Position numbers and translations under genes: made by a program. Of a stretch of 34,696 bases of DNA, positions 786 to 17,325 are shown piece after piece; within the stretch, counting starts at the first letter, position 1, and each line of letters begins with the position of its first letter. Below the pieces are notes generated by a model. It was not told the DNA's origin. It did no database searches and saw nothing but the letters and a program-made list of their open reading frames with translations. The stretch is from Thermotogae bacterium (GTDB lineage: Bacteria; Thermotogota; Thermotogae; Petrotogales; Petrotogaceae), in assembly GCA_022704305.1 (NCBI GenBank), contig JAKJGQ010000009.1, forward strand, positions 1 through 34,696, in the 5' to 3' direction.

Positions 786-789
786 CATA

Positions 790-1875: not shown

Positions 1876-3868
1876 CAGAAGATACAGGAAATGAGACGGT
1901 AAAGACTGTTCCTTCGTTTTTGATACTTTGACATTTAATACTGCCCTTGAGCGTCTGGGTGACAAGGTTATAAACTATGCTTAGTCCCAGACCGGTATTG
2001 CCTTTAGTCCTGTTAGTTGTAAAAAACGGATCGTATATTTTTTCTATATCCTGCTGAATTATCCCGTGACCGTTATCGCTGTAAACCAGTTCAATCATCT
2101 GTTTATTCTTATCAGACTGATCGGTTATAAGAACAGCTTTTATTTTTATCGTACGTTTCTCGAGCCCTTCAAATCCATGAATAACCGAGTTGGAAACAAG
2201 GTTGGTAATTATTTGCGACAAAGCTCCTGGGAAGCTTTCTATATCAAGATTTTCATCACAGTCTATTTCTGTACGGTGACCATTTTTCTTCAGAGGATAG
2301 TTCATGGTAAGAACTATATCCTCAAGATACTTTTTTAAGTTAAACTGCCTTTTTTCCTGACTGGACTGATCCACAGAGATCTCCTTGAGACTGACTACCA
2401 AACCGGCAGCCTTTTTAAGATTCAAAACTATTATATCCGAAGTTTCAATATTTTTCCTCAGGAACTCCTCAAAACAGGATTTTGTAAGTTCTCCTTTACT
2501 GTGCATATTCAGTATTTTCCTGTTCTCGTCAGATATATAGGTACTTCCCACCAGACCGTTTCCAAGAGGTGTGTTTATCTCGTGGGCTATCCCACCGACA
2601 AGCTTACCCAGAGCAGCCATCTTTTCGCTTTCAATAAGACTTTTCTGTGTTTTTCCCAGTTCATCCAGAGCTGCCTGAAGCTCTTGGTTCATAGCCAAAA
2701 GCTCCTGATTCATCGCAACAAGACCCTCGTTCGCTTCATCCAACTGCGCATAAGCTTTTTCAAGATTCATAGTCCGCTGCTGTATAAGCTTTTCAAGATT
2801 ATTGTTAAGCTCCATAAGTCTTTTCTGAGTTTTTATTCTTTCCGTGATATCCTGTACAAAAGAAAAATTGTACTTCTTATCTTTGTACACAAGATAGTTT
2901 GAAGTAACTTCAACATCGTAAAGAGAACCGTCTTTCCTTTTCTGCTTTCTCTGAAATACCGTGCTTTGCTCATCTTTTATTTTTTCCATGTGACTGCTCC
3001 ACAGCTGCTCATCCAAATCCGGATCTATATCAAATACAGTGAGTTTTCCGAACTCCTGTTCACTGTAGCCAAGATTCTTCCTCGCTGAACTATTTGCATA
3101 GACTATACTTCCGTCAGTTTTTATCCAGTAAGCTTCTATCATAGACTTTTCAACCGCAAACTTGGAAACCTCCAATGCAGTATCAAGCCTTTCCAGTCTG
3201 TAAGAGCTCTCTCTAAGCTTTGTCTCACGGTTTTTTATCTCCAAAACCATCTTTGCAAAGCTTTCTTCTATCTTTAGGAACTCTCCGCAACTCTTCTCAA
3301 TCTTTTCATCATATCTGCCGTTAGAAATATTCTGAATATAAACCATAAGCTTGTCCAAAGGTTTTTTAATAAACCTAGAAAACAAAAATGAAGATGAAAA
3401 CTGGATAACTGCTATAAGAACCACCACAAGCAACAAAATCATGGCTATACTGTCGACAAAATCGCTTATCAGCGCATCATATCCAAAAGAAACCTTTAGT
3501 TTTCCCAGTGCCTTATTCCCATAGAATATGGTTTTAGAAACGGATAAATGATTAGACGGTACTTTTTTTTCCTTAATGAACACAATACTATCGTGGACAT
3601 CGTACACAGTTATGCTTTTCACACTGTCGTCAAGAAAAAAAGTATCCGCAGCTTTTTCCATCCCCTGAAAATCCTTCTCTTGAAGTTCTAAAGACATAAG
3701 TTCTGAAAGATTTGCTGTGCTTGATTCATACACACTTATGAAATCCTTTTTTCTTAGGTCGTAGCTCCACAAAACACCTATCATTCCAACAACAAAAACA
3801 GATAAAGCAACTATTGCACCAAGATAAAATGAAAACTTTGAAGCTATAGACATACCGTTTTTTTCCAT
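1865..3868 (-). CDS. Membrane sensor histidine kinase (HAMP-PAS-coiled coil-HATPase)
   Basis: The protein has 667 residues. Two membrane segments (about 13-34 and 139-162) bracket an extracytoplasmic sensor region of about 100 residues. Then come a HAMP-like stretch, a PAS domain (about 235-345), a long coiled coil rich in repeated AMNQEL-type heptads (about 350-415), the phospho-acceptor helix with H429 in GGIAHEINTPLG, and an ATPase domain with N-box region NSVIHG, DNGHGI, DPFFTT and GNTGLGLSIV. It is a complete sensor kinase without a receiver of its own. The nearby REC-Hpt, Hpt and REC-PPM proteins are natural partners. The ATG at 3868 is preferred because AGAGGTAAGC lies just before it; an upstream ATG at 3901 would add 11 residues without a good site. 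It is separated from the upstream acetyltransferase gene by a terminator, so it probably has its own promoter. Confidence 0.93.
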   Translation of the reverse strand: MEKNGMSIASKFSFYLGAIVALSVFVVGMIGVLWSYDLRKKDFISVYESSTANLSELMSLELQEKDFQGMEKAADTFFLDDSVKSITVYDVHDSIVFIKEKKVPSNHLSVSKTIFYGNKALGKLKVSFGYDALISDFVDSIAMILLLVVVLIAVIQFSSSFLFSRFIKKPLDKLMVYIQNISNGRYDEKIEKSCGEFLKIEESFAKMVLEIKNRETKLRESSYRLERLDTALEVSKFAVEKSMIEAYWIKTDGSIVYANSSARKNLGYSEQEFGKLTVFDIDPDLDEQLWSSHMEKIKDEQSTVFQRKQKRKDGSLYDVEVTSNYLVYKDKKYNFSFVQDITERIKTQKRLMELNNNLEKLIQQRTMNLEKAYAQLDEANEGLVAMNQELLAMNQELQAALDELGKTQKSLIESEKMAALGKLVGGIAHEINTPLGNGLVGSTYISDENRKILNMHSKGELTKSCFEEFLRKNIETSDIIVLNLKKAAGLVVSLKEISVDQSSQEKRQFNLKKYLEDIVLTMNYPLKKNGHRTEIDCDENLDIESFPGALSQIITNLVSNSVIHGFEGLEKRTIKIKAVLITDQSDKNKQMIELVYSDNGHGIIQQDIEKIYDPFFTTNRTKGNTGLGLSIVYNLVTQTLKGSIKCQSIKNEGTVFTVSFPVSSVSR

Positions 3869-3922
3869 TCGCTTACCTCTGACTTTTATTTTTAAAAACA
3901 CATTTTACATGATATCTACTTT

Positions 3923-3951
3923 ATAATACGTTTTTTTGTTAAGAAGGTAAA
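3923..3951 (-). promoter_or_regulatory. Possible promoter of the sensor kinase gene
   Basis: On the minus strand, TTTACC (3946-3951) and TATTAT (3923-3928) are 17 bases apart in an AT-rich stretch between the upstream terminator and the kinase start at 3868. Both boxes depart from consensus, so this is a moderate call. Confidence 0.4.
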
Positions 3952-3961
3952 TATATCTTAC

Positions 3962-3996
3962 AAAAAAAAGAATAAGACCTGCCGGTCTTATTCTTT
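3962..3996 (-). terminator. Intrinsic terminator after the acetyltransferase gene
   Basis: A 13-bp perfect stem (3967-3979 with 3984-3996, loop TGCC) is followed on the minus strand by a run of T (complement of the A run at 3962-3969, part of which is in the stem). The stop codon of the acetyltransferase gene lies inside the stem. It has no T run in the plus direction, so it serves the minus-strand operon only. Confidence 0.9.
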
Positions 3997-4743
3997 ATAG
4001 TAGCTCTGATTCTTCAAAAGCTGTTCCTGCGGAACATCTCTGAGTACTTTGGCGGGTGAGCCTATATAAACTTTACCTGCCAAGGTACTTCTGGTTACAA
4101 CGCTTGCAGCTGCTACAAGGGTATCCTCAGCAATCACCACACCAGGCAGTATAGTAGAGTTAGCCCCTATTCTTGCACCTTTTTTCAATGTCGGCCCTTT
4201 GAAATATTTTTTTCTTTCTTCTGTTCTCCCCAAAAAATTATCGTTGGTAAAGGTAACCTCCGGAGCAATGAAACAGTAGTCCTCTATAACGGATATTGCC
4301 GTGATATATGCATTAGTCTCGACTTTTACGTACCTTCCTATAACAGTTTTATTTTCAACGCTCACACCACGTCCTATAATCGTAAACTCCCCGATGGAAA
4401 CCTCTTCTCTCACGCTTGCAAGATCACCTATGAAAACATGGCTTTGTATTAAAGCTCCAGCATATAGTATACAGCCCGCACCTACCGTAACGCACTCTCC
4501 TATAGCAAGAGGATCAAGTAAAACGTCCTTGGTAACAGCCGAGTTGCTTGCCTTGAAAGGTCTTTTGCCCAAAACAGTACTATCGCCTATCACGCTTGAC
4601 CTTCCTATTTTAGTACCTTCATGGATAATTACCAAATCGCCTATAACTGAATTTTCACCTATTACTACACCATCATCAATCACAACATTCCTTCCGATTT
4701 TAACGTTATCTCCTATAACAGCCTTTTCTGATATGCTGTTCAT
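3988..4743 (-). CDS. Hexapeptide-repeat (left-handed beta-helix) sugar N-acetyltransferase
   Basis: Nearly the whole 251-residue chain is built of isoleucine/valine-glycine hexapeptide repeats (for example VIGDNVKIGRNVVIDD), as in LpxA/WbpD-type acyltransferases. The C-terminal half (APEVTFTND, then GPTLKKGARIGANSTILPGV and GSPAKVLRDVP) most resembles WbpD/WlbB-type enzymes that N-acetylate an amino group on a nucleotide-linked sugar with acetyl-CoA. The product would be a surface-polysaccharide building block, but the substrate cannot be read from sequence. The ATG follows GGGAGGGA and overlaps the Hpt stop by 4 bases (ATGA), so expression is coupled to signalling genes. This is unusual, because no other sugar-pathway gene is in view. 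A generic member of the LbetaH superfamily with another acyl acceptor is the alternative. Confidence 0.85.
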   Translation of the reverse strand: MNSISEKAVIGDNVKIGRNVVIDDGVVIGENSVIGDLVIIHEGTKIGRSSVIGDSTVLGKRPFKASNSAVTKDVLLDPLAIGECVTVGAGCILYAGALIQSHVFIGDLASVREEVSIGEFTIIGRGVSVENKTVIGRYVKVETNAYITAISVIEDYCFIAPEVTFTNDNFLGRTEERKKYFKGPTLKKGARIGANSTILPGVVIAEDTLVAAASVVTRSTLAGKVYIGSPAKVLRDVPQEQLLKNQSYYKE

Positions 4744-5060
4744 AATATCCCTCCCGATTTTTGAAATGCTTCCGCCCTGCGCACAAGCTCCGCAATGCTG
4801 TCCTCATTCTGTGAAATAGCCGCCTTTTCAATATCAGAAAACAAAACCGCAACCTCATCGTACATTATATTGGCACTTGCACCCTTAAGTGAGTGTGCAC
4901 AGTTTTTGATCTGTGTGTAATCAAGCACATACAATGAATTTTTTAGTTCCTCTAGCTTTTGAATAAATAACTGACGAAAATCCTTTATTATATCCAAAGC
5001 TTCTTCTTTTGTAAGCCCGTATCTCAAAACCAATTTTTCGCAAAGTTCGTTTTCTGTCAT
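4740..5060 (-). CDS. Stand-alone histidine phosphotransfer (Hpt) protein
   Basis: This is a 106-residue helical protein with the Hpt signature CAHSLKGASAN; H56 is the likely phospho-acceptor. Stand-alone Hpt proteins shuttle phosphate between receiver domains. It lies between the REC-PPM phosphatase (22-base gap upstream) and the acetyltransferase (4-base overlap downstream). The sensor kinase downstream lacks a receiver, so this protein probably belongs to a branched relay that includes the receivers of the phosphatase and of the plus-strand regulators. A strong ribosome site (GGAGGAG) precedes the ATG. Confidence 0.9.
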   Translation of the reverse strand: MTENELCEKLVLRYGLTKEEALDIIKDFRQLFIQKLEELKNSLYVLDYTQIKNCAHSLKGASANIMYDEVAVLFSDIEKAAISQNEDSIAELVRRAEAFQKSGGIL

Positions 5061-5082
5061 AAAATCTCCTCCATCATAAAGT

Positions 5083-6231
5083 CTAGAGAATTTTTAAAAC
5101 CATGATACTGGTGTCATCGGAGCATCTTTTTCCCTGACACTTAAGAAAATTTTGCTTTATTTTCCAAACTGTATCTTCAGCAGTCATTAAGTTCATATCA
5201 AGCTTGTTCATAAAACCGATGAGTTGTTTTACCCAGACTCTTACGGTAAGCTGGTCATCATCAGCATTGTTTTGAAATCCATCGCTGTACAGAATTATAA
5301 AGTCGCCTGCAGCTACCTCTGTCTGCATCTGAAAATATTCTGCTTCCTTCATAATACCTACAATGAACCCATTTTCCTCTATAACAAAAAAATCCTTGGA
5401 TACAGCTTTGTAAACCAGAGGATATGGATGTCCTGCGTTGCAGAAGGTAAGACAGTTATTCTTTATATTCCCTATAAATGCCGTAAAGCTAAAGTACAGA
5501 TTGTCTTTTATACTATCACAAAAAAAATCGTTCATCCTTTTTATAACCCCGGCAGGAGTTTTCTCTAACTTGATATAATTTTCAAACATGACCTTTACCA
5601 TGGAAGATATCATCGAAGCAGCCACTCCATGTCCGGAAACATCGGCTATTATGAACCAAAGTCCATCCTGGTTTTCTATACAGTCAAAAAAATCACCGCC
5701 AACCTTGGATGCCGGAAGATAATCACCGTACATCTGAGCTACCTTAAGCTCTTTGGTATTATTTATTATCATATGCTGAAATATGTTGGCAAGTTCCATC
5801 TCCTCCTGCATCATACTGTTTAGCTCCATAATGGTTCTGATATGCTCAACTTCCTTAAGAGCATTTTTGACTTTTAACGGAAGTATAAACTCTATCTGTT
5901 CAGATGTAAAGGGCTTTGTAAAATAGTCATCTGCCCCCAGCTCAAGAGCTTTTTTTACATATTCAATCTCATCTATGGCTGAACTAACTATTACTGGAAT
6001 ATTACTGTATCGATCACTGCTTTTTATCTCCTTCAAAAACCCAAAACCATCAAGCTTGGGCATCAAAAGATCTAAAAAAATAAGATCTACTTGGTTATGA
6101 TAAATAATTTCAAGGGCCTGAACACCATCAGAGGCTTCATAGAAATTCAGTTCTGCCATATTCTTTGATATTACTGCCTTTATAAGTTTGCGGTTGATTG
6201 AAATATCATCCACAATAAGTATAGCTTTCAC
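5083..6231 (-). CDS. Response regulator with PPM-type (RsbU/SpoIIE) serine phosphatase domain
   Basis: The N-terminal receiver (about 1-125) has D8/D9, phospho-acceptor D54 in IFLDLLMP, and a KPF lysine near 107. A short helical linker leads to a PP2C-like SpoIIE domain (about 175-382) with metal-binding motifs SKVGGDFFD, ADVSGHGVAASM and ILYSDGFQNN plus the final SDDTSIMVL. Such proteins dephosphorylate an anti-anti-sigma factor or similar STAS protein when their receiver is phosphorylated. No STAS or anti-sigma gene is visible here, so the target is elsewhere. Translation starts at a GTG with GGAGGAAA 5 bases upstream. It is the first gene of the phosphatase-Hpt-acetyltransferase operon that ends at the terminator near 3967. 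Confidence 0.93.
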   Translation of the reverse strand: MKAILIVDDISINRKLIKAVISKNMAELNFYEASDGVQALEIIYHNQVDLIFLDLLMPKLDGFGFLKEIKSSDRYSNIPVIVSSAIDEIEYVKKALELGADDYFTKPFTSEQIEFILPLKVKNALKEVEHIRTIMELNSMMQEEMELANIFQHMIINNTKELKVAQMYGDYLPASKVGGDFFDCIENQDGLWFIIADVSGHGVAASMISSMVKVMFENYIKLEKTPAGVIKRMNDFFCDSIKDNLYFSFTAFIGNIKNNCLTFCNAGHPYPLVYKAVSKDFFVIEENGFIVGIMKEAEYFQMQTEVAAGDFIILYSDGFQNNADDDQLTVRVWVKQLIGFMNKLDMNLMTAEDTVWKIKQNFLKCQGKRCSDDTSIMVLKIL

Positions 6232-6293: not shown

Positions 6294-6325
6294 AAAAAAA
6301 GACCCCCAAGGATCAGCTTGGAGGT
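6294..6325 (-). terminator. Intrinsic terminator of the export operon
   Basis: On the minus strand a 9-bp stem (6317-6325 with 6302-6310, one G-U pair, loop of six) is followed by TC and seven T (complement of 6294-6300). It is about 155 bases downstream of the last export gene (stop at 6480). I see no gene or clear signal in 6326-6479, an AT-rich stretch. Confidence 0.85.
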
Positions 6326-6479: not shown

Positions 6480-7706
6480 CTATTCATATCTTAAAGCCTC
6501 TATCGGGCTAAGTTTAGACGCCTTGTTGGCAGGATAAATACCAAAAAACAGGCCTATACCAGACGAAACCCCGAAAGCAATAAGAATTGAAGGTAGTGAC
6601 ATTACAGCTTTCAGCTCATACTGAACAGCAAAACTTTCGATAAGCTTCGAAAGACCAATACCGAAAACTATCCCTATGATACCCGCTACAAAAGTGATCA
6701 TAATGCTTTCAACAAGAAATTCAAGAAGAATCCTTTTACGTGATGCACCTATGGCCTTTTTAATTCCTATCTCCCTTGTTCTTTCGGTAACCGAAACAAG
6801 CATAATATTCATTATACCAATGCCGCCTACAAGCAAAGATATCCCAGCAATCGCCATGAGAACAAGATTTATAACTCCGGTAACCTGTCCAACCATCTGG
6901 GAAAGAGATTCCTGTGCAGTGATCACGTATTTTTGTATATTCTTCAGTCTCAAGTACAGCACATAGTTTATCTCAAGACACGCTTTGGCAGAAAGTCCAT
7001 CTTTGGCAGAAACGATTATGCTGTCAACAGTTCCATTGGACTGCTTAATCCTCATATCTCCGGTTGAGTACGGTAAAAAAACCGTTCTGTCTGCATTGAA
7101 AAAAAACTTACTTCCTGTCTTCTTCAATACTCCTATAACCTGAACAGATGTTTTGCGCCCGGACTCGCCGTAGTTCTGATTTAAGAATACTGTTTTCCCT
7201 ATGGGATCAGATTGCTTAAAAAGTTCAAGCGCAAGATCGGAACCTATCACACATACTTTAGCGACATTTTTTTCATCTTCATTATCAAGTATCCTTCCGG
7301 CCTGAGTTTCAAGTCCCATCATCTCAAAAAACTCCGGACGGCTTGCTATAGTCATGGAATAAACGCTTCTTTTTTCATACTGAAGCTCCAAACCTGGGTT
7401 TAAAACCGGAACCACATACTTTACACTTGGTGCCATACCTCTTATGTTATCTACATCCTGTATAGAAAGGGCATTTTTGACAGATGAAAGTGACATTCCG
7501 CCATAACCTCCCATATACCCCTGTTCTACAAGTATTACATTTGATCCCAGTGAGTTCATCATCTCGCTCACTCTGCTGGTTGTTCCCTGCCCAAGGGCAG
7601 TAACGGTTATTACCGCCATGACTCCGATTATTATTCCGAGCATCGAAAGAAAGGTCCTCATTTTATTGGTCAGAAGTGACCTCATAGTCTCTTTAAGTAT
7701 TTCCAA
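6480..7706 (-). CDS. MacB/FtsX-type ABC exporter permease
   Basis: This 408-residue MacB-type permease has one N-terminal membrane helix (about 18-38, after the conserved MRSLLTNKMRTFLSMLGIII start), a large periplasmic domain (about 45-275), and three C-terminal helices. The last part includes the family motif SVTERTREIGIKKAIGASR and ends PANKASKLSPIEALRYE. MacB-type permeases do not carry substrate across the inner membrane. They use mechanical motion to push periplasmic substrate through a MacA-TolC conduit. The ATPase domain, fused in MacB of enterobacteria, is here a separate upstream gene overlapping by 14 bases. Translation begins at TTG, 6 bases after GAGGTGACC. It is the last gene of the ten-gene operon. 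Confidence 0.93.
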   Translation of the reverse strand: MEILKETMRSLLTNKMRTFLSMLGIIIGVMAVITVTALGQGTTSRVSEMMNSLGSNVILVEQGYMGGYGGMSLSSVKNALSIQDVDNIRGMAPSVKYVVPVLNPGLELQYEKRSVYSMTIASRPEFFEMMGLETQAGRILDNEDEKNVAKVCVIGSDLALELFKQSDPIGKTVFLNQNYGESGRKTSVQVIGVLKKTGSKFFFNADRTVFLPYSTGDMRIKQSNGTVDSIIVSAKDGLSAKACLEINYVLYLRLKNIQKYVITAQESLSQMVGQVTGVINLVLMAIAGISLLVGGIGIMNIMLVSVTERTREIGIKKAIGASRKRILLEFLVESIMITFVAGIIGIVFGIGLSKLIESFAVQYELKAVMSLPSILIAFGVSSGIGLFFGIYPANKASKLSPIEALRYE

Positions 7707-8388
7707 TACCGGTCACCTCTATTTTTTCAATAAGACCATCCCTCAGCTTTATCAGCTTGTTCCCTTTTTTTGCCATATCCGGATCATGAGTGACTATGAT
7801 CACGGTCTTACCAGATGAGTTCAGTCTGCCAAATATTTCGAGTATCTCCTTGCCACTCTGAGTGTCAAGGTTGCCGGTAGGCTCATCGGCAAGAATTATT
7901 GAAGGATTATTTGAAAGAGCCCTCGCTATTGCCACACGCTGCTGCTGTCCTCCAGAAAGCTGATTAGGGCGGTGGTTTATACGCTCATTCAGACCGACAT
8001 CCTGTAAAAGCTCTTTTGCCCGCTCTGTTCTTTCCTTACCCTTGTAAACATTTCCGTATATCATCGGAAGCATTGTATTTTCAAGCGCAGTAAGTTTGGG
8101 AAGCAGATTGAAGCCCTGAAAAACGAAGCCTATCTTACGATTTCTCACTTTAGCAAGCTGATCTTCGTTCATCTTTGAAGTCTGTGTACCGTCTATGGAA
8201 ATTTCGCCGCTTGAAGGTCTGTCAAGACAGCCCAGTATCTGAAGCAAAGTAGATTTACCGCTTCCGGAAGGCCCCATTATAATAACATAGTCCCCGTGTT
8301 CTATTGAAAAAGATATGCTTTTTAGGGCATTCACCTGAACATCGCCCATCTTATAGACTTTTGAGATTTCTTTAAATTCTATTACAGG
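7693..8388 (-). CDS. MacB/LolD-type ABC exporter ATPase
   Basis: This 231-residue ATPase has Walker [15 protein letters not shown], signature [15 protein letters not shown], Walker [13 protein letters not shown] and the H-loop in VIIVTHD. These features place it in the MacB/LolD/FtsE group that powers FtsX-fold permeases. I place the start at the ATG at 8388 ([13 protein letters not shown]), which follows AGGGTGG. An ATG at 8457 would add 23 residues that read as an out-of-frame copy of the adaptor gene's end. It overlaps the upstream adaptor gene by 17 bases and the downstream permease by 14, so all three are probably made in fixed ratio. Confidence 0.93.
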
Positions 8389-9439
8389 CATCGTATCCAC
8401 CCTGCTTACAAACAGATGCATAATAACCTTTTCCAAGATTCTCCGGAACCGGGACATCCGGACTTTCTTCTATTATTATCTCTGTCCCTTCTTTTATTCC
8501 TTCTATTATTTCAACCACATTAACTGTGCGCTCGCCGGTTTTAATATATACTTTCTGCCTTTCACCCTTTTCATCCATCACGAGAAGATACTCGCCAGAC
8601 TCATCTGAGTAGACAGCTCTTACGGGAACAACAAGTATATTCTGTTTATGCATCAGCAGAACTTTTATTTTGCAGCTCATGCCGGATATTACCCCATACT
8701 TTGACGCATCCTCATCAAAAGAGATCTCTACCGGGACAGAAACCATGCCTCCCGAATTTGCAGCCGAAGGGCTTACATAACTTATATAACCGCTTATCTT
8801 AACATTCAACGAAGAAAACTCTATTATCACCCTGCTACCTTTCTTTATGACAGGTATGTCCAGTTCGTCTATGGAAGCCTTAGCCATAAGACTCGATGTA
8901 TCGACTATGCTTACAAGCTCACTGCTTTGGGAAGAATACTCCCCAACTTTAGCGGAAACACTTTTTACTGTTCCGTTGGCGGGGGATTTTATTATCACAT
9001 TATCCAGATTTTTTTTAGCCAGATCCAAATCTATTTTTTTCTGCTGAACATCAATAGGAGCACCGGTAAGTGAGCTTTCATAATCCCTGTAGGCAGCAAG
9101 ATACTTTGAGCGCAGCCCGGTTTCACTAAGCCTCACCAGAGGATCACCAATTTTAACGGTATCTCCCTGTTTTACATAGACCTGCTCTATCTCCTCATTC
9201 ATCTTGGAAGTTATTTTATAAACATCGGCATCAACACTTCCAAACAGTTCAACCGCATCAGGTATTTCTTTTTTTTCAACCCTATAGGTTAAAAAATAGC
9301 CACCGACACTTCCATTCTGAGTTAACTGGTTTTGACCGGCATCAGCAGCAGTACTGCCGCCTCTGAAGAATTTTATTGCCACAAATACTATTAAAATTAA
9401 AACTACAATCCAAATAATGACCTTACTGCGTTTTTTCAA
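8372..9439 (-). CDS. MacA/HlyD-type periplasmic adaptor protein
   Basis: The 355-residue protein has a single N-terminal membrane anchor (about 7-24). It then shows the usual adaptor order: a lipoyl half, a short helical hairpin (about 105-150), the other lipoyl half (IIKSPANGTVKSVSAKVGE), a beta-barrel region (about 185-260) and a membrane-proximal domain ending near 335. It would link the MacB-type permease to an outer-membrane channel. The helical hairpin is short compared with Escherichia coli MacA. The TTG start overlaps the stop of the preceding gene (TTTGA) and has GGAGGTACGC before it. This position between outer-membrane factors and the ABC pair is the standard tripartite arrangement. 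Confidence 0.9.
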   Translation of the reverse strand: MKKRSKVIIWIVVLILIVFVAIKFFRGGSTAADAGQNQLTQNGSVGGYFLTYRVEKKEIPDAVELFGSVDADVYKITSKMNEEIEQVYVKQGDTVKIGDPLVRLSETGLRSKYLAAYRDYESSLTGAPIDVQQKKIDLDLAKKNLDNVIIKSPANGTVKSVSAKVGEYSSQSSELVSIVDTSSLMAKASIDELDIPVIKKGSRVIIEFSSLNVKISGYISYVSPSAANSGGMVSVPVEISFDEDASKYGVISGMSCKIKVLLMHKQNILVVPVRAVYSDESGEYLLVMDEKGERQKVYIKTGERTVNVVEIIEGIKEGTEIIIEESPDVPVPENLGKGYYASVCKQGGYDACNRI

Positions 9440-10734
9440 AGCGTACCTCCTCCTGCAGGCAATCCATACTCCTGCAAAAGTTTAACGCAGGTCAGATACA
9501 TGCTCTGCAAAGTTTTTTCATAATCAAGTTTTTTTGACATATGTTCATAAGATCCCAGATCATACTTTTCCTTAGTAAGATATCCTTTTTCCATAAGGAG
9601 CTTGTTTTTAGCGAGTTCTGCAAGTGAATCATCCATATTAGCCTTACTTGCAAATACCTCCATTTTATAAATTTCAAGATCCTTTTTTAACTTCTCAATA
9701 CTGTGCTGTGTACTCTCTTTTGCATTAGCAGTCTGTAGAACAGCTATCTCGTACTGTGAAATCCTGTTGGAGCTTTCAACAGACTTGCTTGATACCGTAC
9801 CTTTTTCAAAAAACGAATATTCAAAGCTCAATCCTACATGCCATTTTAAACTGTCTAAAAGATCTATGCCAAAAGATATCACCGGATTAGGAAGATACGG
9901 TAAAAACCACATTTCCTTCTGACGGCGGGCTATATCCTCCTTAAGTAATACTGAAGGAAGTTCCGTTCCATTGAAATTGACCTGTGTGCAGTCCTCAGAA
10001 ATCAGAACCATCTTTTCACAAATCTGAACTGCCTGGCTGTAAAGCTCTGCACAGTATTCAAGATTCAGCCCGTTAAGAACAAGCTCGTTGTTTATACTCA
10101 GCTTATTCAGCTCGGTAAGCTGTTGTCTGTAAGTTTTTTTCTTTTCATTATCATTTTCATTTTCATATAGTATCTCAGTCACATAAGTTCTTCCGTTGAT
10201 AAGTTCTCTTGTTGAAAGCGCATTATGATAATTGAAAATATCCTGTAAAAGCTGGCTGAAAATATCCCATCTGGTTTTTTCCATTGCATTTTTGCTCTGC
10301 ATAACACTCAGCTCAGCCTGCGGAACCTCAAGATAAAACTCCGTGAACAAAGGTCTTGAAACGGTAAGATTGAAGTTTTCAAACTTCCCAGAATAATCGG
10401 TAAGATCGTATACATACGGAAGACTTACACCTATGCTCGCACCCAAAATCTTGACAAAGTTGGCTTTTAAGTTTAGTCTTATACTTTTATGCCCGTTAAC
10501 AATATTCTTGTTTTCAAGACCGTCCTTTCCAAAAATTATCTGATCGAACCCTGCGGTTAATCCAGGTATCCAGAAGGATTTCTTTTCATCAAGAGTCCGT
10601 ACTGCCTGGTTAAAAGAGTTTTCAGACAACATAAAGGCAGTACTCTTTTCCACTCTTTCATTATAAATTTCTGTTATCCCGCCATAAACAACAGTTACAA
10701 TAAAAATCAACATAGCTATGAAAATTTTTTTCAA
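9436..10734 (-). CDS. TolC-like outer-membrane efflux protein (second of two)
   Basis: The 432-residue protein has a signal peptide (MKKIFIAMLIFIVTVVYGG, about 1-19). Long amphipathic helices alternate with short strand-rich segments, and the C-terminal helical stretch (about 320-425) includes SYEHMSKKLDYEKTLQSMY. This is the outer-membrane efflux protein (OEP) pattern, but conservation is low and the assignment also rests on context. It overlaps the first such protein upstream and the MacA-type adaptor downstream, each by 4 bases. It starts at TTG, with GGGGAGG 7 bases before, in a TTGA stop-start overlap. The central region 120-190 (FNLTVSRPLFTEFYLEVPQ) reads like channel strands. Whether it forms a homotrimer or pairs with its neighbour is not evident. 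Confidence 0.75.
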   Translation of the reverse strand: MKKIFIAMLIFIVTVVYGGITEIYNERVEKSTAFMLSENSFNQAVRTLDEKKSFWIPGLTAGFDQIIFGKDGLENKNIVNGHKSIRLNLKANFVKILGASIGVSLPYVYDLTDYSGKFENFNLTVSRPLFTEFYLEVPQAELSVMQSKNAMEKTRWDIFSQLLQDIFNYHNALSTRELINGRTYVTEILYENENDNEKKKTYRQQLTELNKLSINNELVLNGLNLEYCAELYSQAVQICEKMVLISEDCTQVNFNGTELPSVLLKEDIARRQKEMWFLPYLPNPVISFGIDLLDSLKWHVGLSFEYSFFEKGTVSSKSVESSNRISQYEIAVLQTANAKESTQHSIEKLKKDLEIYKMEVFASKANMDDSLAELAKNKLLMEKGYLTKEKYDLGSYEHMSKKLDYEKTLQSMYLTCVKLLQEYGLPAGGGTL

Positions 10735-11732
10735 AGAACTGCCTCCCCGACAGAAAGACCACAGTTAAAAATTAAAGAGACAAGCGCTTTGATATATGAT
10801 TTTATGTTTTCGTTATATGCCTTTTGAGCACTCATATACGATATTTTTTGATTAATGTTGTCTTTTTCAGAAACAAAGCCTTTTTCAAAACGCTTCTGGC
10901 TGTCTTCGTAAACACTCTGCTTAATCTGAAGCTTCACACCACTGCTCTGCAAAGAGGAATAAAGAGAACTGACCATTGCCAAAGCAGTTTCATAACTTTC
11001 AGATACACTTTCCTCTTTATTTTTGAGATTCATCTGCGATATCTCAAGTTTTATCTCAAGTCCTCTTTTTTCATAGTAGGATGAGTTAGATGAAAGGTTC
11101 TGCAGGTCGTACTCTGCAAGCTGAAGGTTTATCTGCTGGGCTTTTAGGCTCAGATCATTTTCTTTGAACGCTTCATATGAAAAACCGCACTCTTTATAGT
11201 CGCACGGCTTTACTTCGTAATCGGCATACTCCGTACCGGTAGCTCTTTTAAAAGCTGTAAGCGCATCATTGTAATCCTTTCGTGCTTTTTCTTCCTGACT
11301 TTGGGCATCTATAACTGCCACCTCAGAATCTTTGAGTGAGTTGAGCGATATCATACCTTTTTCAAACGAAAGCTTAGCGTTCTTATGATCATTTTGAACA
11401 ATTCCAAGCTGGAGCTGCGATATTTCAAGCTCTATCTGAGCCGATTTTACGGCAAAGAAAGCATCGACAACCTCTGAATAAAAATCAGCCTGACCTTTTC
11501 TATATGAGGATCTTTCATTCAGCATAGAAAGCTCCGCCGAAAGAAGAGCCTTTTTATTTGATGACTCTATAAGAGCTTTTTCATATTCCATCTGTGCACT
11601 CTCAAAATTAAGCATAGTCATCTTAATACCCTTATTGCTGTTCAAAGCACTTTTGAACAGTTCACCTATCGGATTGGTGAATGAAATTACTGCAAATCCC
11701 AAAATCATAATGATGAAAAATGTTTTTTTCAT
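10731..11732 (-). CDS. TolC-like outer-membrane efflux protein (first of two)
   Basis: This 333-residue protein has a signal peptide (about 1-19, ending near ISFTNP) followed almost wholly by heptad-rich helices, including QIELEISQLQLGIVQNDHK and the tell-tale OEP phrase FEKGMISLNSLKDSEVAV. The same phrase recurs in the second half as FEKGFVSEKDNINQK. The internal repeat is the hallmark of TolC-family proteins, but at 333 residues it is well short of the usual 420-490. The strand-forming segments appear reduced. It may be a minimal channel subunit or a periplasmic coiled-coil partner of the larger protein encoded next. It follows the 825-residue protein gene after a 44-base gap. Confidence 0.75.
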   Translation of the reverse strand: MKKTFFIIMILGFAVISFTNPIGELFKSALNSNKGIKMTMLNFESAQMEYEKALIESSNKKALLSAELSMLNERSSYRKGQADFYSEVVDAFFAVKSAQIELEISQLQLGIVQNDHKNAKLSFEKGMISLNSLKDSEVAVIDAQSQEEKARKDYNDALTAFKRATGTEYADYEVKPCDYKECGFSYEAFKENDLSLKAQQINLQLAEYDLQNLSSNSSYYEKRGLEIKLEISQMNLKNKEESVSESYETALAMVSSLYSSLQSSGVKLQIKQSVYEDSQKRFEKGFVSEKDNINQKISYMSAQKAYNENIKSYIKALVSLIFNCGLSVGEAVL

Positions 11733-11776
11733 TTAAGTTTCTCCTCTCTTTTAAATTATCTTTTAGCATATTACAG

Positions 11777-14254
11777 CTAATTACTTAAAGGCATCTTAAA
11801 AACCGGTACTTTATAAGAATAATTAGCCCAGTATGATGTTTTAAGGTCTAGTATGAAATAGACCGAACATGACATCTTCCGATCTTTAAAGTTATAATTT
11901 AAGGTGCTTTCGACTGAAAAACCGTTTAAACCTCTTTTGCCGTCAAAAATATTCCAGTGGGGATAGTATAGATCTCCGTAAAGTGTTGCTCCCGCCAAAG
12001 TATTCCCAAGACTGTCATACTCAAAGAAGGGTGTCAGTCTGAAGTTATACAGATAAAACGGTTTAAATATTCCTACACTGAAATACTGAGAATTTTTGGT
12101 ATTGTCGTATAAATAGGATCCGCTCAAAGCAACATCGTATAGACTTATCTTGTTTATGGAGTATGGATTTTGAAACAGCTGAGCCTGCACGCTTACTTTT
12201 TCAGGAGTTATTCCATCAGCTGATCCGGTAGCTGCCAACTTCAGAAAGTACATGTCTTTAAGGTAAAAAGAAAAGTCTTTACTGACTTCAAGAGCTGAAT
12301 GAATGTTTTTTTCGTAGATAAGCTTTAGATCCACTGCCGCCAAAGAGTTGAAATACAGCTCCAGGTTATGTTTTAATGACTCTTTTTTAAAGACAAGACT
12401 ATAGTTCATCATATAGTTGTAAGCATCGGAAATTACTGCCACGCCCATTCCGTAATTAAGAGTCAGCTTAGAAAGATCCATCTCTAAGATATCATCAGAG
12501 AGTTCTGCATACGGATAAACAATTATATGCTGCGGATTTTCAAAGTACTTCTCGGCAGAAAGATCGTTTTTTCCCACAAATCCGGTGCTTTCAAACATGA
12601 AAGCTTTGGCAGAAAGTGTTTCTGACTCGGTGGATAGAGCAGGATCTGTTTTGGAAATATAATAACCCTCCCAGTCATATGAAAGAAAGTAAAGCTGATC
12701 TCCCAAAACTGCCGGAGAGAAAGCTCCCATCTCCGAAAAGGTCATCTGCCTGACAGCCATGTCCTGCAGATCAAGACTGAATATATTAAAAATCCCGTTA
12801 TAGTTCTTAGTGTAAAAAAGCTTTCCCTTGGCATATGACAGATCAGCTTCATACTCTTTATCGTCTGTAAGTCTTTGCATAGATGCGTTCCTTCTGTCAT
12901 ACCGGTATATGTCCGACTGTCCGTCGTATGTCAGTGATAAGTAGATATCCTCTTGTGTACCGCACACGCTATTCATAACGTACTTGTCCCAGCCAAGGAT
13001 CTGAGAAGACTTCTTCTCAATCAGATCATATACAAAAACTCCGCTCAGTCCTTTGTCATTGGCGGTGTATACTACCGTTCGGCTATCCGCAAACCCAAAA
13101 TTAAGAACTCTTTGGGCTATGAGAGTATCTGATATGGGACAGTCACATTTGATATAAAGACTGTTAAAAGCGTTGCCGTCATTACTTATAGTTTTTGAAA
13201 ATATCACCTCTCCGTTTGACGAAACATCAAACTTGCTTACTTCGGGAATAATAAGCTCTTCGTTTTTATATACACCTGCTCTGGAAAAAGGCATAACCTT
13301 ATAAGCATATAGATTTTTACCGTCAGTTCTGAGGTTTCCCGTCCGCTCATACTCTTTTCCGAGTTTCTCATATTTTTGAATATTTCCGTTATCACCAACG
13401 ATACTCATCTGTTCTATATACTTTAACTTAATTTTCTGAAGAAACTCGCTCCACTTATCTCCGGTTACCTTTTCAAAAGCACCGGATATACTGGAAAAAA
13501 AACTGCTTGAAGTCAATCTGACTATCTCCCTTAGTACTTCTTCAGAATAAAAGCCGGCTATTTCTTTTGTAAATAAAGCTCCGTACATATAGTTGAAGCC
13601 TGCCGGGGACCACACCTTAACCTGTGCGCCTGATCCCAGCTCGTATCTGGGGTACTTAGGACTCAAGACTTCAGCTTTAAGGTACATATTAAAAAGATCA
13701 TTTTCAAACCTTCCGCCAAAGTACTTGCTCTCCATATAAATACTCAGCCCCTCATGAAGATAACTGGGCTGAGAAGACATGTTAGATATTTTCTTTATGG
13801 TCTGATTCGGTATCCAAGAAATAAAAGGATTGCTGACCATGTTACTGTAAAAAAGATGATTCAGTTCATGGCAAAAAATCATGCGGTTTGAAAGAAAGTT
13901 GGAACTCAAAAGTCCGCTTGAAAAGTCCGCCGTATTGACATACATTCTTATCTTATTGTCAAATCCTACGGCAAAAGCATTTACATAATCAACATCATCA
14001 AGCATGTAAACCTTTATACCCTCAGGCCTTACCCCGTAAAAAGAAGCATAGTCTTCATATACAGAATCGGCCGACTCCATTATATCCTGAACATAAAAGT
14101 AAAGCTTCTCTTCATAAATATACTCAAAGTTCTTGGTTTTAAGTGTAAGAAGCTCTTTAGGCGGTGTAAATATCACAGTACTTCCGAAAAAAACAGTTCC
14201 GACCAGAAGAAACAGAAAAAGCACTTTCAGACTCTTGTTTTGTGGACTGACCAT
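11777..14254 (-). CDS. Predicted MA-type metallopeptidase, beta-propeller and outer-membrane barrel protein
   Basis: This is an 825-residue exported protein (signal or anchor about 9-27). Residues 35-290 look like an MA/gluzincin peptidase domain. They contain H129-E130-L-N-H133 and a later LHEGLSIYME whose E168 is the expected third zinc ligand. Residues about 300-560 are repeated short strands of WD40/TolB-propeller style (SNGEVIFSK, VFVYDLIEKKSSQILG, DIYRYDRRNASMQRLTDD, LFYTKNYNGIFNIFSLD). The rest (about 590-825) is alternating aromatic/polar strands like an outer-membrane barrel, though it does not end in the usual aromatic residue. I do not recognise a named homologue. Placement between a YtrBC-like ABC pair and efflux channels suggests a role in processing or sensing exported or envelope proteins. 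Catalysis and barrel are predictions. Confidence 0.7.
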   Translation of the reverse strand: MVSPQNKSLKVLFLFLLVGTVFFGSTVIFTPPKELLTLKTKNFEYIYEEKLYFYVQDIMESADSVYEDYASFYGVRPEGIKVYMLDDVDYVNAFAVGFDNKIRMYVNTADFSSGLLSSNFLSNRMIFCHELNHLFYSNMVSNPFISWIPNQTIKKISNMSSQPSYLHEGLSIYMESKYFGGRFENDLFNMYLKAEVLSPKYPRYELGSGAQVKVWSPAGFNYMYGALFTKEIAGFYSEEVLREIVRLTSSSFFSSISGAFEKVTGDKWSEFLQKIKLKYIEQMSIVGDNGNIQKYEKLGKEYERTGNLRTDGKNLYAYKVMPFSRAGVYKNEELIIPEVSKFDVSSNGEVIFSKTISNDGNAFNSLYIKCDCPISDTLIAQRVLNFGFADSRTVVYTANDKGLSGVFVYDLIEKKSSQILGWDKYVMNSVCGTQEDIYLSLTYDGQSDIYRYDRRNASMQRLTDDKEYEADLSYAKGKLFYTKNYNGIFNIFSLDLQDMAVRQMTFSEMGAFSPAVLGDQLYFLSYDWEGYYISKTDPALSTESETLSAKAFMFESTGFVGKNDLSAEKYFENPQHIIVYPYAELSDDILEMDLSKLTLNYGMGVAVISDAYNYMMNYSLVFKKESLKHNLELYFNSLAAVDLKLIYEKNIHSALEVSKDFSFYLKDMYFLKLAATGSADGITPEKVSVQAQLFQNPYSINKISLYDVALSGSYLYDNTKNSQYFSVGIFKPFYLYNFRLTPFFEYDSLGNTLAGATLYGDLYYPHWNIFDGKRGLNGFSVESTLNYNFKDRKMSCSVYFILDLKTSYWANYSYKVPVFKMPLSN

Positions 14255-14257
14255 ACC

Positions 14258-15079
14258 TCACAGCCTTTCAAACGGATTAAAGGCTTTGCCACCCTGAAGA
14301 TATGCAAGCGCTATCTCCTTGAAGTTGGGATATCTCCCCGCATCCTCGGAGGTTCTTATAAGAGTTCCTTCATTCAGCAGACCTATAACATCCCCGTGCG
14401 GAATCCTTTCACCTTTTTCCACAATTCTGTGTGATGCCTTGGCATCGTCTATAGTGTCAGTATAAAGAACCTTTCCTTCGTTTATTATGGCAAAAGAAGA
14501 CGCAATCTCCTCAAGCTCGTAGATCTCGTGTGAAGAGATAACTATGGTCTTATTCTCACTCAGAACAAAATCATGGAGCATATTAAGAACCTCATGTCTT
14601 ATTACCGGATCTAAATTCTGTGTTGGTTCGTCAAGAATGAGCAGGTCAGCTCCGCTTGCCATATCCAATGCAAGATAAAACAGAGTCTTCATACCCATCG
14701 AAAAGGTTTCCACTCTGTCTTCAAGATTAAATCTGTAATGCATCATAAAACTGGCAAAAATGCTTTCATTCCATCTTGGATAAAGCATCTTCCACAGCTT
14801 AAGATAATCGGCTCCCTTAAACCGCTTAAAGGTAAGACGGTCTTCCGTCATAACAGCTATTCTTTCCTTCAGCTTTGAACTGACCGGAGAGGAAAAAACC
14901 TCAACTTTACCGCTTTCAGGCATCAGCTCCCCGAAAATACATCTGATGGTTGTGGTTTTACCTGCGCCGTTTGGTCCTATAAGGGCAAAGATCTCCCCTT
15001 CCTGGACTGAAAAAGATATATTGTTGAGAATATGCTTACTGCCAAAACTTTTATTGACATTTTCAATATTTATTATCAT
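14258..15079 (-). CDS. ABC transporter ATPase (YtrB-like)
   Basis: This 273-residue ATPase has Walker A GPNGAGKTTTIRCIFGE, Walker B LLILDEPTQNLDP and the H-loop in IVISSHEIYELEEIA. The signature motif is FSMGMK rather than LSGGQ, a variant common in YtrB-type ATPases that pair with a GntR regulator. With the adjoining six-helix permease it forms an ABC-2-like transporter. It overlaps the permease gene by 4 bases (ATGA) and lies 3 bases before the 825-residue protein gene. A cell-envelope export or antibiotic-response role is usual for such modules; the substrate is unknown. Confidence 0.93.
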   Translation of the reverse strand: MIINIENVNKSFGSKHILNNISFSVQEGEIFALIGPNGAGKTTTIRCIFGELMPESGKVEVFSSPVSSKLKERIAVMTEDRLTFKRFKGADYLKLWKMLYPRWNESIFASFMMHYRFNLEDRVETFSMGMKTLFYLALDMASGADLLILDEPTQNLDPVIRHEVLNMLHDFVLSENKTIVISSHEIYELEEIASSFAIINEGKVLYTDTIDDAKASHRIVEKGERIPHGDVIGLLNEGTLIRTSEDAGRYPNFKEIALAYLQGGKAFNPFERL

Positions 15080-15642
15080 TTCTGAATTCCCTTCCTTTCA
15101 AACAGATAAAATGAAAAGACAAAGACTACCGCTGCAAACACCGCTGAAAACAGAAGATTGCCGTTATGAACAGGACTTATATAGCTGTAAAAATTACTCC
15201 ACTTAGGTCCTATAGCTCCGAATATGGCATCGGCAAAAAATACTAAAAGCGGGATGCCAAGATTATCCAAACCGTATAAAACAGCCACCATAGAAACTCC
15301 GTAATAAAAAGCACAAAAAATAACACTCTTTAAACACTCCACCATAAGATAGGCTATCTTAACTCCCAGCAATGCTCCGCCTATAAACTGGGTTGAAATG
15401 CTTACTGCAAGTACGAAAACAAATCCGGATAAAAATATTTCCCTGTGCGAAAAAGGCAGGGATATTAAGAGCGAAAACCTTTTGTTGTGTATATCAAAAG
15501 GCAGCATAAGACAGATAAGAAGAAGCAGGAATATAACACGTCCGTAGAAGTTTGGTATAAACAGAAGCAGGGATAAAATGGCTATCAGACCTGCTTTATC
15601 AGCAATTTCCTTCATAAAATAAGCTTCTATTTTTTTCAGCAT
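15076..15642 (-). CDS. ABC-2-like transporter permease
   Basis: This small integral membrane protein (188 residues from the ATG at 15642) has about six hydrophobic segments: around 18-33, 37-47, 67-90, 98-118, 122-145 and 160-180. Between helices 2 and 3 lies FDIHNKRFSLLISLPFSHREI, the 'SLP' loop typical of ABC-2 permeases paired with YtrB-like ATPases. An ATG at 15651 is possible, but it sits almost on top of the GGAGG site. The inner ATG gives proper spacing and a 7-base overlap with the regulator stop. It is the membrane partner of the downstream ATPase. Confidence 0.85.
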   Translation of the reverse strand: MLKKIEAYFMKEIADKAGLIAILSLLLFIPNFYGRVIFLLLLICLMLPFDIHNKRFSLLISLPFSHREIFLSGFVFVLAVSISTQFIGGALLGVKIAYLMVECLKSVIFCAFYYGVSMVAVLYGLDNLGIPLLVFFADAIFGAIGPKWSNFYSYISPVHNGNLLFSAVFAAVVFVFSFYLFERKGIQK

Positions 15643-15992
15643 TCCTTCCATACCTCCTCAATAAGAAGACCAAGCATCTGAAGATCTATTTTTTTTGTTT
15701 TAATATCCCTCACAAACTCCATTATCTGTTTAGGAATATCCGGGTCTATTATAACATCAGAAGTTATAAAGTATCCTATTCCGTGTTTGGCCTCCACTAT
15801 CTTTTCAAACTGGAGGTACTCCAGTGCACGCATTATGGTATTCATATTCACACCGAAAATATTTTCCATTTCTCTCACCGGCGGTAGCTGGCTTCCGTCT
15901 GTAAACCTTCCGAGAAATATCTCTTTTTTTATCTGATTCATTATCTGAAGATAGGCAGGAACACCGCTATGCTTATCTATCTTTGTTAGCAT
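15636..15992 (-). CDS. GntR-family transcriptional regulator, YtrA type
   Basis: The 118-residue protein is a winged helix-turn-helix domain (about 10-78: VPAYLQIMNQIKKEI, then LPPVREMENIFGVN and TIMRALEYLQ) with only a short helical C-terminal tail. That is the size and layout of the YtrA subfamily, which lacks a large ligand domain. YtrA proteins repress their own ABC operons, and relief comes with cell-wall-active compounds in Bacillus. Here the perfect inverted repeat over the operon's -10 box (16956-16985) is the likely operator. Its gene follows the 310-residue membrane protein after 12 bases and shares bases with the permease gene. Confidence 0.92.
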   Translation of the reverse strand: MLTKIDKHSGVPAYLQIMNQIKKEIFLGRFTDGSQLPPVREMENIFGVNMNTIMRALEYLQFEKIVEAKHGIGYFITSDVIIDPDIPKQIMEFVRDIKTKKIDLQMLGLLIEEVWKEC

Positions 15993-16004
15993 ACAGATCT
16001 CCTC

Positions 16005-16937
16005 CTAATACAACGTGCTCAAGACAGTGACTCCGTCCTGAGTTCTTATATCGAGTGTTCCTTCATTGTTTCTGGGCTGCATTACTTCTATCCTTCCGGA
16101 GTTTGAACTTATACTAAGAATACGGACACCCTCCCAGCTGTCAGTATACTTTATTCTTCCGTTGGCGTAAAGGCTGTCTATATTAAATGTTTTTACCTCA
16201 GAAACATTAAGATCCAGTTCGCATATGTTTCCGTTTATTATCATTTTTTCAGCTTTTACCATTCCCTTTGCCTTAAGATCATCAGCAATTAAAATAACAG
16301 TTTTTTCTGCAGTAAGTGTAGCGTCTATGGTACACACCTGAGTGTCCGCACTCACCCTCTGTGCATAAAACTCTCCACTGATGCTTACAGCGGAGTTTTG
16401 TATATCAAGAATCTCTATCCGTTCACCACTTGGCAATGAAATAGTTGCTGCTTCAGACGTGCTTCTGACATAGTCCAGAGCACTTATATTATTGACATCG
16501 CCTTTCTTTTTAAATGCAACCTTTCCTATGGCACGCGGATTATTTTCATCAGAAGTGAATTTTATGTTCAAAGCCCCACCGCTCACCCTGTAACTCAAAG
16601 CAGGCAACAACGCACCGTCCTCTACTACGGTGTAGCCTTCATGAGAATACTCGGACTCCCAGTCCGAAAAGTAAATATACCTCCATGAAGAGCTGTTAAA
16701 AAACCTGCTCACCAGATTATAATCCCTGGATATAGCAAGGAACAGCACCGGAATGATTACAAAAATAACCGCAAGTACTATGAAAAGCGTTGAGAACCTT
16801 TTAATGTTCATCGCATACAAAAAAATTGCAACACTGGCAAGAATAATCTTCAGCGGCACAAACGGCACCAGAACCGCTGCGAGCGATATAACTATAACAA
16901 TAAGGAATCTCGCAAGCTTTTCGTATTCTTTCAACAC
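16005..16937 (-). CDS. Membrane-anchored beta-rich protein of unknown function
   Basis: This 310-residue protein is the first gene of the export operon. The N-terminal 70 residues contain about three hydrophobic helices (10-26, 27-43, 48-69). The rest is a Gly/Ser/Val/Ile-rich region of short repeating strands (ATISLPSGERIEILDIQNSA, AEKMIINGNICELDLNVSEV, SNSGRIEVMQPRNNEGTLDI), like the beta-helical domains (DUF4097/LiaF-like) found in envelope-stress operons. I do not recognise a specific family. Start: GTG with GGAGGT 6 bases upstream, about 28 bases from the predicted transcript start. As leader gene next to a YtrA-type regulator it could be an envelope-stress sensor or a transporter accessory protein. 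Confidence 0.75.
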   Translation of the reverse strand: MLKEYEKLARFLIVIVISLAAVLVPFVPLKIILASVAIFLYAMNIKRFSTLFIVLAVIFVIIPVLFLAISRDYNLVSRFFNSSSWRYIYFSDWESEYSHEGYTVVEDGALLPALSYRVSGGALNIKFTSDENNPRAIGKVAFKKKGDVNNISALDYVRSTSEAATISLPSGERIEILDIQNSAVSISGEFYAQRVSADTQVCTIDATLTAEKTVILIADDLKAKGMVKAEKMIINGNICELDLNVSEVKTFNIDSLYANGRIKYTDSWEGVRILSISSNSGRIEVMQPRNNEGTLDIRTQDGVTVLSTLY

Positions 16938-16955
16938 AAGTACACCTCCAATAAC

Positions 16956-16985
16956 TTTAGTGTTCTATAAAATTATAACACTAAA
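16956..16985. promoter_or_regulatory. Probable operator of the YtrA-type regulator (inverted repeat)
   Basis: A perfect inverted repeat, TTTAGTGTT - 12 bases - AACACTAAA, covers the -10 box and likely +1 of the export operon promoter. In Bacillus the YtrA site is an AGTGTA/TACACT pair with a 13-base spacer; the core here (AGTGTT/AACACT) is very similar. Position and symmetry indicate autorepression by the GntR protein encoded second in the operon. Confidence 0.8.
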
Positions 16986-17000
16986 ACACATCAATGTCAA
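16972..17000 (-). promoter_or_regulatory. Consensus sigma70 promoter of the ten-gene export operon
   Basis: On the minus strand TTGACA (16995-17000) and TATAAT (16972-16977) are both perfect and 17 bases apart. The expected start is about 16965, leaving a short leader before the GTG at 16937. A promoter this strong needs a repressor, consistent with the overlapping inverted repeat. Confidence 0.9.
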
Positions 17001-17105: not shown

Positions 17106-17130
17106 TTAAAATAGAAAATTAAATATGCAT

Positions 17131-17276
17131 TCTTAAGGTGAATAACAGGGAATCGGGTGAAAAACCCGAGCGGTCCAGCCACCGTAATCAGGGACGAACA
17201 TCACATATGCCACCGGGCTTTTCCGGGAAGGCGTGATAAGTAGGAGGATCTGAGAGCCGGGAGACCTACCTTAAGA
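17131..17276 (+). promoter_or_regulatory. Cobalamin riboswitch aptamer
   Basis: The aptamer is closed by a 9-bp P1 stem (17131-17139 with 17268-17276). Inside are the CGGGT/ACCCG hairpin, the core CCAGCCACCGTAATCAGGGA, the TATGCCACCGGG...CCGGGAAGGCGTGATAAG arm, and the B12 box AGCCGGGAGACCTACC (17255-17270). This matches the established cobalamin aptamer, which turns expression down when adenosylcobalamin or a related cobamide binds. It lies 60 bases before the first ring-synthesis gene. Confidence 0.95.
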
Positions 17277-17285
17277 TTTGTTGGC

Positions 17286-17325
17286 TTTGCTTTCTCTTGG
17301 AATAGAAAGCAGATATTTTGTTTTT
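17286..17325 (+). terminator. Possible riboswitch expression platform (P13 / attenuator hairpin)
   Basis: A 10-bp stem (17286-17295 with 17304-17313, one wobble) with loop CTTGGAAT is followed by TATTTTGTTTTT. That is a plausible intrinsic terminator placed directly before the GGAGG of cbiC. The loop's GGAA (17299-17302) could kiss UUCC (17221-17224) in the aptamer's L5 region, as in known cobalamin switches. Translational control through the nearby ribosome site is the alternative. Confidence 0.5.

Follow-up and report, generated by a model that had tools for sequence, protein, structure and literature searches.

The DNA analysed here (the window; 34,696 nucleotides) comes from a 2.0 Mb, 80% complete MAG of a Petrotogaceae-like member of the Thermotogota. 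According to its ORF list, ten intact co-directional genes, g1 to g10, all encoded on the minus strand, run from position 16937 down to 6480 and are separated, in that order, by 12, −16, −4, 3, 44, −4, −4, −20 and −14 nt. These values assume that g9 starts at position 8391 (MPVIEF), rather than at the ORF start at 8457, since homology begins at M23 of the ORF. In front of g1 lies a promoter with an extended −10 element (TTGACA-17-TATAAT; positions 16972–17000, minus strand), which matches at 12 of 12 positions and is the sole such site in 13 kb, and behind g10 lies an intrinsic terminator (positions 6302–6325, minus strand) with a 9-pair stem, including five G-C pairs, followed by a T-run. Consistent with the sequence-only reading, these two signals enclose all ten genes. 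Internal promoters or terminators, which that reading had named as evidence against itself, are represented within the unit only by weak matches sited in coding sequence, and no promoter- or terminator-like match falls wholly inside any of the inter-gene gaps. Judging from the sequence, the ten genes are likely transcribed as a single unit. We divided this unit into module A (g1-g2-g3-g4), module B (g5) and module C (g6-g10). These genes recur, with ~94–100% identity, in a sister MAG from the same genus ('uncultured Petrotoga sp.'), where they lie on two contigs whose ends cut g5 and g9; the A–B junction and most of the B–C run are thus each supported separately. The domain assignments made earlier also hold: GntR, ABC_tran, OEP, HlyD/RND_mfp, a MacB-type ATPase, MacB_PCD with FtsX, and a TolB-like propeller are all present.

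g2 (positions 15636–15992; 118 aa, HTH at residues 14–76; Pfam GntR 3.7e-14, PmtR 1.7e-10) is predicted to be a repressor of the YtrA subfamily, which is defined by short GntR proteins, of an HTH domain and about 50 further residues, encoded in operons with ABC genes (PMC4494728). g2 conforms to this rule, and the ABC genes g3 and g4 lie downstream of it. Upstream of g1 there is a palindrome, TAGTGTTATAATTTTATAGAACACTA, whose core, GTGTTATA-N6-TAGAACAC (positions 16960–16981, no strand assigned), covers the −10 box; the outer TA/TA is likewise symmetric. Published operators of YtrA-type regulators are long palindromes in which GT and AC lie well away from the centre, as established in a study that already covered 14 Thermotogae regulators (PMC4494728), and GTGTTNTA-N6-TANAACAC has this arrangement. 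The same operator core precedes g1 in about 30 relatives. Across 103 genomes the exact pattern occurs at 38 sites, versus 2 for the reversed control, and approximately 32 of the 38 perfect sites are located at module A. When two mismatches were allowed, the reversed control scored equally often, and therefore only perfect sites were counted genome-wide. The position of this candidate operator over the −10 box and its conservation in relatives strongly support the earlier proposal of a self-repressed single unit, in which the repressor would bind at the palindrome.

Two other perfect operators are present in the genome of the window, both over good promoters. One (locus L151, near position 7553 of contig C198) precedes an ABC ATPase–permease pair with no regulator gene adjacent; the other (L152, near position 2292 of contig C233) covers the promoter in front of an operon of glycosyltransferases with an LPG_synthase_TM protein and is kept in the sister MAG (L159). 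The suggestion that the regulator senses envelope stress is plausible in the light of the genes that these operators face, and we infer it on that basis. Furthermore, in genome G006, which belongs to another genus and is devoid of the ten-gene fusion, a perfect operator is found about 200 bp before g6-g10 (contig C24, locus L050, position 14258), with the GntR gene on another contig. Since this operator precedes g6 there, coupling of a YtrA-type regulator to MacAB appears to be independent of the fusion.

The remaining members of module A are two ABC components and a membrane-anchored protein. g3 (positions 15076–15651) is an ABC-2 type permease, with six of 16 family members matching ABC2_membrane_5, and its family is present in 67 of the 103 Thermotogota genomes. 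g4 (positions 14258–15079) is a PmtA/YtrB-like ABC ATPase, which matches the PmtA model at 1e-47, a score below the cut-off of that model. g1 (positions 16005–16937) has an N-terminal transmembrane segment followed by a beta-rich extracytoplasmic domain of the toastrack/bactofilin-like kind, with weak family matches to DUF2807, DUF4097 and Bactofilin; a PDB search with g1 gave no relevant match. We regard g1 as a candidate envelope sensor or scaffold. In some Petrotogaceae (L088, L089, L100 and L101) a second g1 copy is located at the other end of module A or just upstream of it. Module A resembles PmtR-PmtABCD of S. aureus, the phenol-soluble modulin exporter, in that a YtrA-type regulator accompanies an ABC-2 exporter, with g2 similar to PmtR and g4 to PmtA. 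However, the scores of g2 and g4 are far below the family cut-offs and the unit lacks a second pair of the PmtC/PmtD type.

Module B, g5 (positions 11777–14254), combines an HExxH...E metallopeptidase domain with a TolB-like beta-propeller (TolB model 8.2e-8; TolB structures 5e-14) and probably, as far as the sequence indicates, a C-terminal beta-barrel. Residues H129, E130, H133 and E168, corresponding to the HExxH motif and downstream Glu of MA-like peptidases, are invariant in 25 aligned sequences, and g5 is accordingly predicted to be an active metallopeptidase. Pfam support for the peptidase assignment is weak; members of the g5 family match PD40 and Peptidase_MA_2. Relatives of g5 are found in 102 of the 103 Thermotogota genomes, in some of which only the propeller or only the peptidase part matches, whereas g6 is present in 55. 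Given this distribution, the earlier idea that the protease acts on the exported product is not supported, and nothing in our data ties g5 to any such product. A dedicated secretion system with g5 processing an exported peptide, which would give a role to a predicted active peptidase encoded in the same ten-gene unit, is most improbable, given that g5 occurs nearly throughout the phylum with or without g6 and that an inspection of the unit, unsystematic as regards short ORFs, brought no gene for a peptide precursor to light.

The two proteins at the head of module C are both homologous to TolC-type outer membrane factors (OMFs), yet they differ in the part that forms the barrel. g6 (positions 10731–11732) consists of a signal peptide and two long helical hairpins; it matches Pfam OEP in two stretches (8.4e-17), as expected for a two-repeat OMF, and is the only protein in the genome of the window that reaches the OEP cut-off. 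In a control scan this family cut-off is also reached in Thermotoga maritima, a common laboratory organism. The AF2 model of g6 (pLDDT 90) is entirely helical, and its best PDB folds in Foldseek are TolC and OprM (1e-8). In profile comparisons, residues 77–143 of OprM (66 residues) correspond to only 20 residues of g6, and residues 234–348 (114 residues) to 65; similarly, residues 215–325 of TolC (110 residues) correspond to 51. The segments that are short in g6 are the positions of the two transmembrane beta-hairpins in OprM and TolC, both of which are absent from g6 in the sequence and in the AF2 model. This shortened form is not peculiar to the window: g6 is 317–368 aa long in all 41 non-redundant sequences, versus 416–523 aa for g7 in 36 sequences, a set taken at a length of at least 400 aa. 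A search of g6 against plasmids gave no match.

In contrast to g6, g7 (positions 9436–10734) has two helical hairpins and, in its predicted structure, barrel strands (AF2 pLDDT 84; Foldseek TolC 4e-11; 15 of 16 family members match OEP). Four of the predicted strands belong to the first repeat, where confidence is modest (block pLDDT ~45–80), and the other two to the second. Both AF2 models are of monomers and were built from 14–16 sequences. Six predicted strands per protomer, compared with four in TolC, would give an 18-strand barrel in a trimer. The description of the exporter as two-channel thus fails, because of the two OEP-type proteins only g7 has barrel strands.

The rest of module C corresponds to a MacA adaptor and a MacB transporter split between two genes. 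g8 (positions 8372–9439) is an adaptor of the MacA type that contains lipoyl and barrel domains (HlyD_D23; RND_mfp 1.7e-34). g9 (positions 7693–8391, from M23 of the ORF) is a MacB/LolD-type ATPase by model match, and g10 (positions 6480–7706) is a MacB-type permease with a periplasmic core domain (MacB_PCD 1.5e-40; FtsX 8e-24), so that all components of MacB are represented with the ATPase in a gene of its own. An apparent loss of g10 in some relatives was rejected, because tblastn finds the gene intact there. Overall, module C bears out the claim of a tripartite-type exporter and resembles the MacA-MacB-TolC pump in its MacA-type adaptor, its MacB-type ATPase and permease and its TolC-type OMF. 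It departs from that pump in three respects: MacB is encoded by two separate genes, MacA has a hairpin of about half the length, and the OMF role is shared by the barrel-less g6 and the barrel-bearing g7 in place of a single complete OMF. The hairpin of g8 has 45 residues, and it measures 39–47 residues in 34 of 34 relatives, versus 93 in E. coli MacA. Moreover, the RxxxLxxxxxxS tip, the TolC-binding motif of MacA, AcrA and MexA (PMC3391258), is lacking in g8. Most g6 proteins display an N-x3-L-x6-S spacing in their first hairpin, with S at the L position in the g6 of the window; the kinship of this spacing to the MacA tip is suggestive only.

There are hints that g6 and g7 are stacked or mixed parts of one duct. 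In the stacked arrangement, g6 would form a segment of the periplasmic tube between the half-length MacA and the barrel-bearing g7, yielding a four-part MacAB conduit; we put this forward tentatively, as nearly but not quite an even bet. A search of the open-access literature returned no such architecture, nor a description of a barrel-less TolC or of a Thermotogota MacAB. If, on the other hand, g6 and g7 were mixed in one hetero-oligomeric OMF ring, g6 would contribute helices and g7 helices together with extra barrel strands, and the six predicted strands of g7 against the four of TolC could compensate for a strandless g6. The 4-nt overlap between the two genes and their fixed order also fit a mixed ring. 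Such a ring is nevertheless rather unlikely, as it leaves unexplained the gap created by the shortened MacA hairpin. A reduced or lost adaptor hairpin has a parallel in BesA of the Borrelia BesABC system (PMC4446572). Unlike module C, BesABC belongs to the RND pumps; its TolC homologue is BesC, and no barrel-less OMF homologue was noted for it.

The function assigned to module C as an exporter has its own competitor, since the LolD score of g9 almost equals its MacB score. The MacAB part might instead export neither drugs nor peptides and work as a Lol- or FtsEX-like machine that releases lipoproteins or controls enzymes of the wall or envelope; g6 would then regulate or chaperone g7. We consider this distinctly improbable, because the set includes an adaptor, an OMF and the MacB periplasmic core domain, and Lol systems are not known to contain an OMF. 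What speaks for it, apart from g9, is the published discussion of YtrF of Bacillus subtilis as an effector resembling FtsX (PMC8060467, PMC12772383).

Neighbourhood comparison revealed that the three modules ordinarily stand apart in the genomes of relatives. Module C has g6-g7-g8-g9-g10 in this order in about 33 relatives, and the set of g6, g7 and a short MacA is widespread in Thermotogota. Complete joining of A, B and C is seen only in the genus of the window, in two MAGs, so that co-function of the three modules could be lineage-specific or accidental. Partial joins do occur elsewhere. In three genomes of family f10 (G074, G075 and G080) module A is directly followed by g5, forming a single g1-g2-g3-g4-g5 run (L106, L107 and L108); A and g5 are apart in other f10 genomes. 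In several Petrotogaceae genera B lies about 5–8 kb from C with other genes between them. The sequence-only reading had made its case depend on the parts not being always apart in close relatives, and the outcome is mixed: A and B are adjacent in family f10, B is near C in Petrotogaceae, and in G006 the operator of A also stands before C, but the full arrangement is seen only in one genus. A lineage-specific accident, by which three independent modules came to form the ten-gene unit without a common task, is in keeping with this separation and with the differing distributions of g5 and g6. We nonetheless judge an accident unlikely, as the three links, namely, A–B adjacency in another family, the B–C neighbourhood and the operator before the G006 MacAB, are hard to obtain by chance, and both ABC types also occur together in the ytr operon of B. 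subtilis (PMC8060467).

The ytrGABCDEF operon encodes the YtrA repressor, the YtrBCD ABC transporter and a MacB-like pair, YtrE/YtrF, of which YtrF carries MacB-like and FtsX-like domains (PMC12772383, PMC8060467). It thus has in one operon, as the Thermotogota unit does, a YtrA-type GntR regulator, an ABC ATPase with its permease, and a MacB-/FtsX-like protein with its own ATPase. The Thermotogota unit differs in adding MacA, two OMF homologues, g5 and the beta-rich g1, and in having one ABC-2 permease in place of YtrC and YtrD. By this analogy, it is in plan a diderm counterpart of the ytr operon. Consequently, the earlier claim that the combination is undescribed holds only in part, since regulator type, ABC module and MacB-like pair are already joined in ytrGABCDEF. 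What may be read as new is a variant of MacAB-TolC in which the OMF is divided between g6 and g7 and the MacA is short.

Taken together, we lean slightly towards an account in which a YtrA-repressed unit for envelope defence includes a MacAB exporter with the job of TolC split between g6 and g7. A dimer of the YtrA-type GntR protein g2 would bind the palindrome over the −10 box and keep the ten-gene unit nearly silent, until the promoter is released by a signal from the envelope, for which inner-membrane or cell-wall damage is the probable candidate. The derepressed cell would then make the ABC-2 transporter (g3-g4) with its membrane-anchored beta-rich partner g1, as well as the envelope metallopeptidase-propeller protein g5 and the MacAB-type exporter g6-g10. 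MacB (g9-g10) would push a substrate from the periplasmic side through MacA (g8), with its short hairpin, into a duct of alpha-helices formed by g6, and from there into g7, whose barrel would lie in the outer membrane, or toga, so that g6 would serve as the periplasmic tube and g7 as the outer-membrane pore. In this scheme repressor binding, the signal, the nature and direction of the substrate and the assembly of g6, g7 and MacA are those that we infer from the features described above.

Descriptions of tripartite pumps name a transporter, an adaptor and one TolC-type channel, and the Thermotogota set would differ from this composition. If the four-part conduit is true, TolC ducts are built in modular fashion and two proteins can share one between them. 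A divided channel combined with a halved adaptor hairpin would, moreover, amount to a natural experiment on what determines the length of a pump and on the docking of adaptor to channel. The operator, for its part, defines a regulon in which envelope stress can be tested for in a phylum of diderm thermophiles, and it forms a bridge to the still unexplained Bacillus ytr operon.

The flanks of the unit are occupied by genes of other kinds. A cobalamin riboswitch (positions 17119–17287, plus strand; Rfam 93.8 bits) adjoins the export operon promoter and heads a divergent cobalamin-synthesis operon, which extends from position 17318 on with CbiC as its first gene. Downstream of the unit, positions 69–6231 hold a signalling cluster comprising a response regulator with Hpt, a response regulator with HD, a PAS histidine kinase and a response regulator with a SpoIIE phosphatase, as well as a small Hpt-like ORF at positions 4740–5060.
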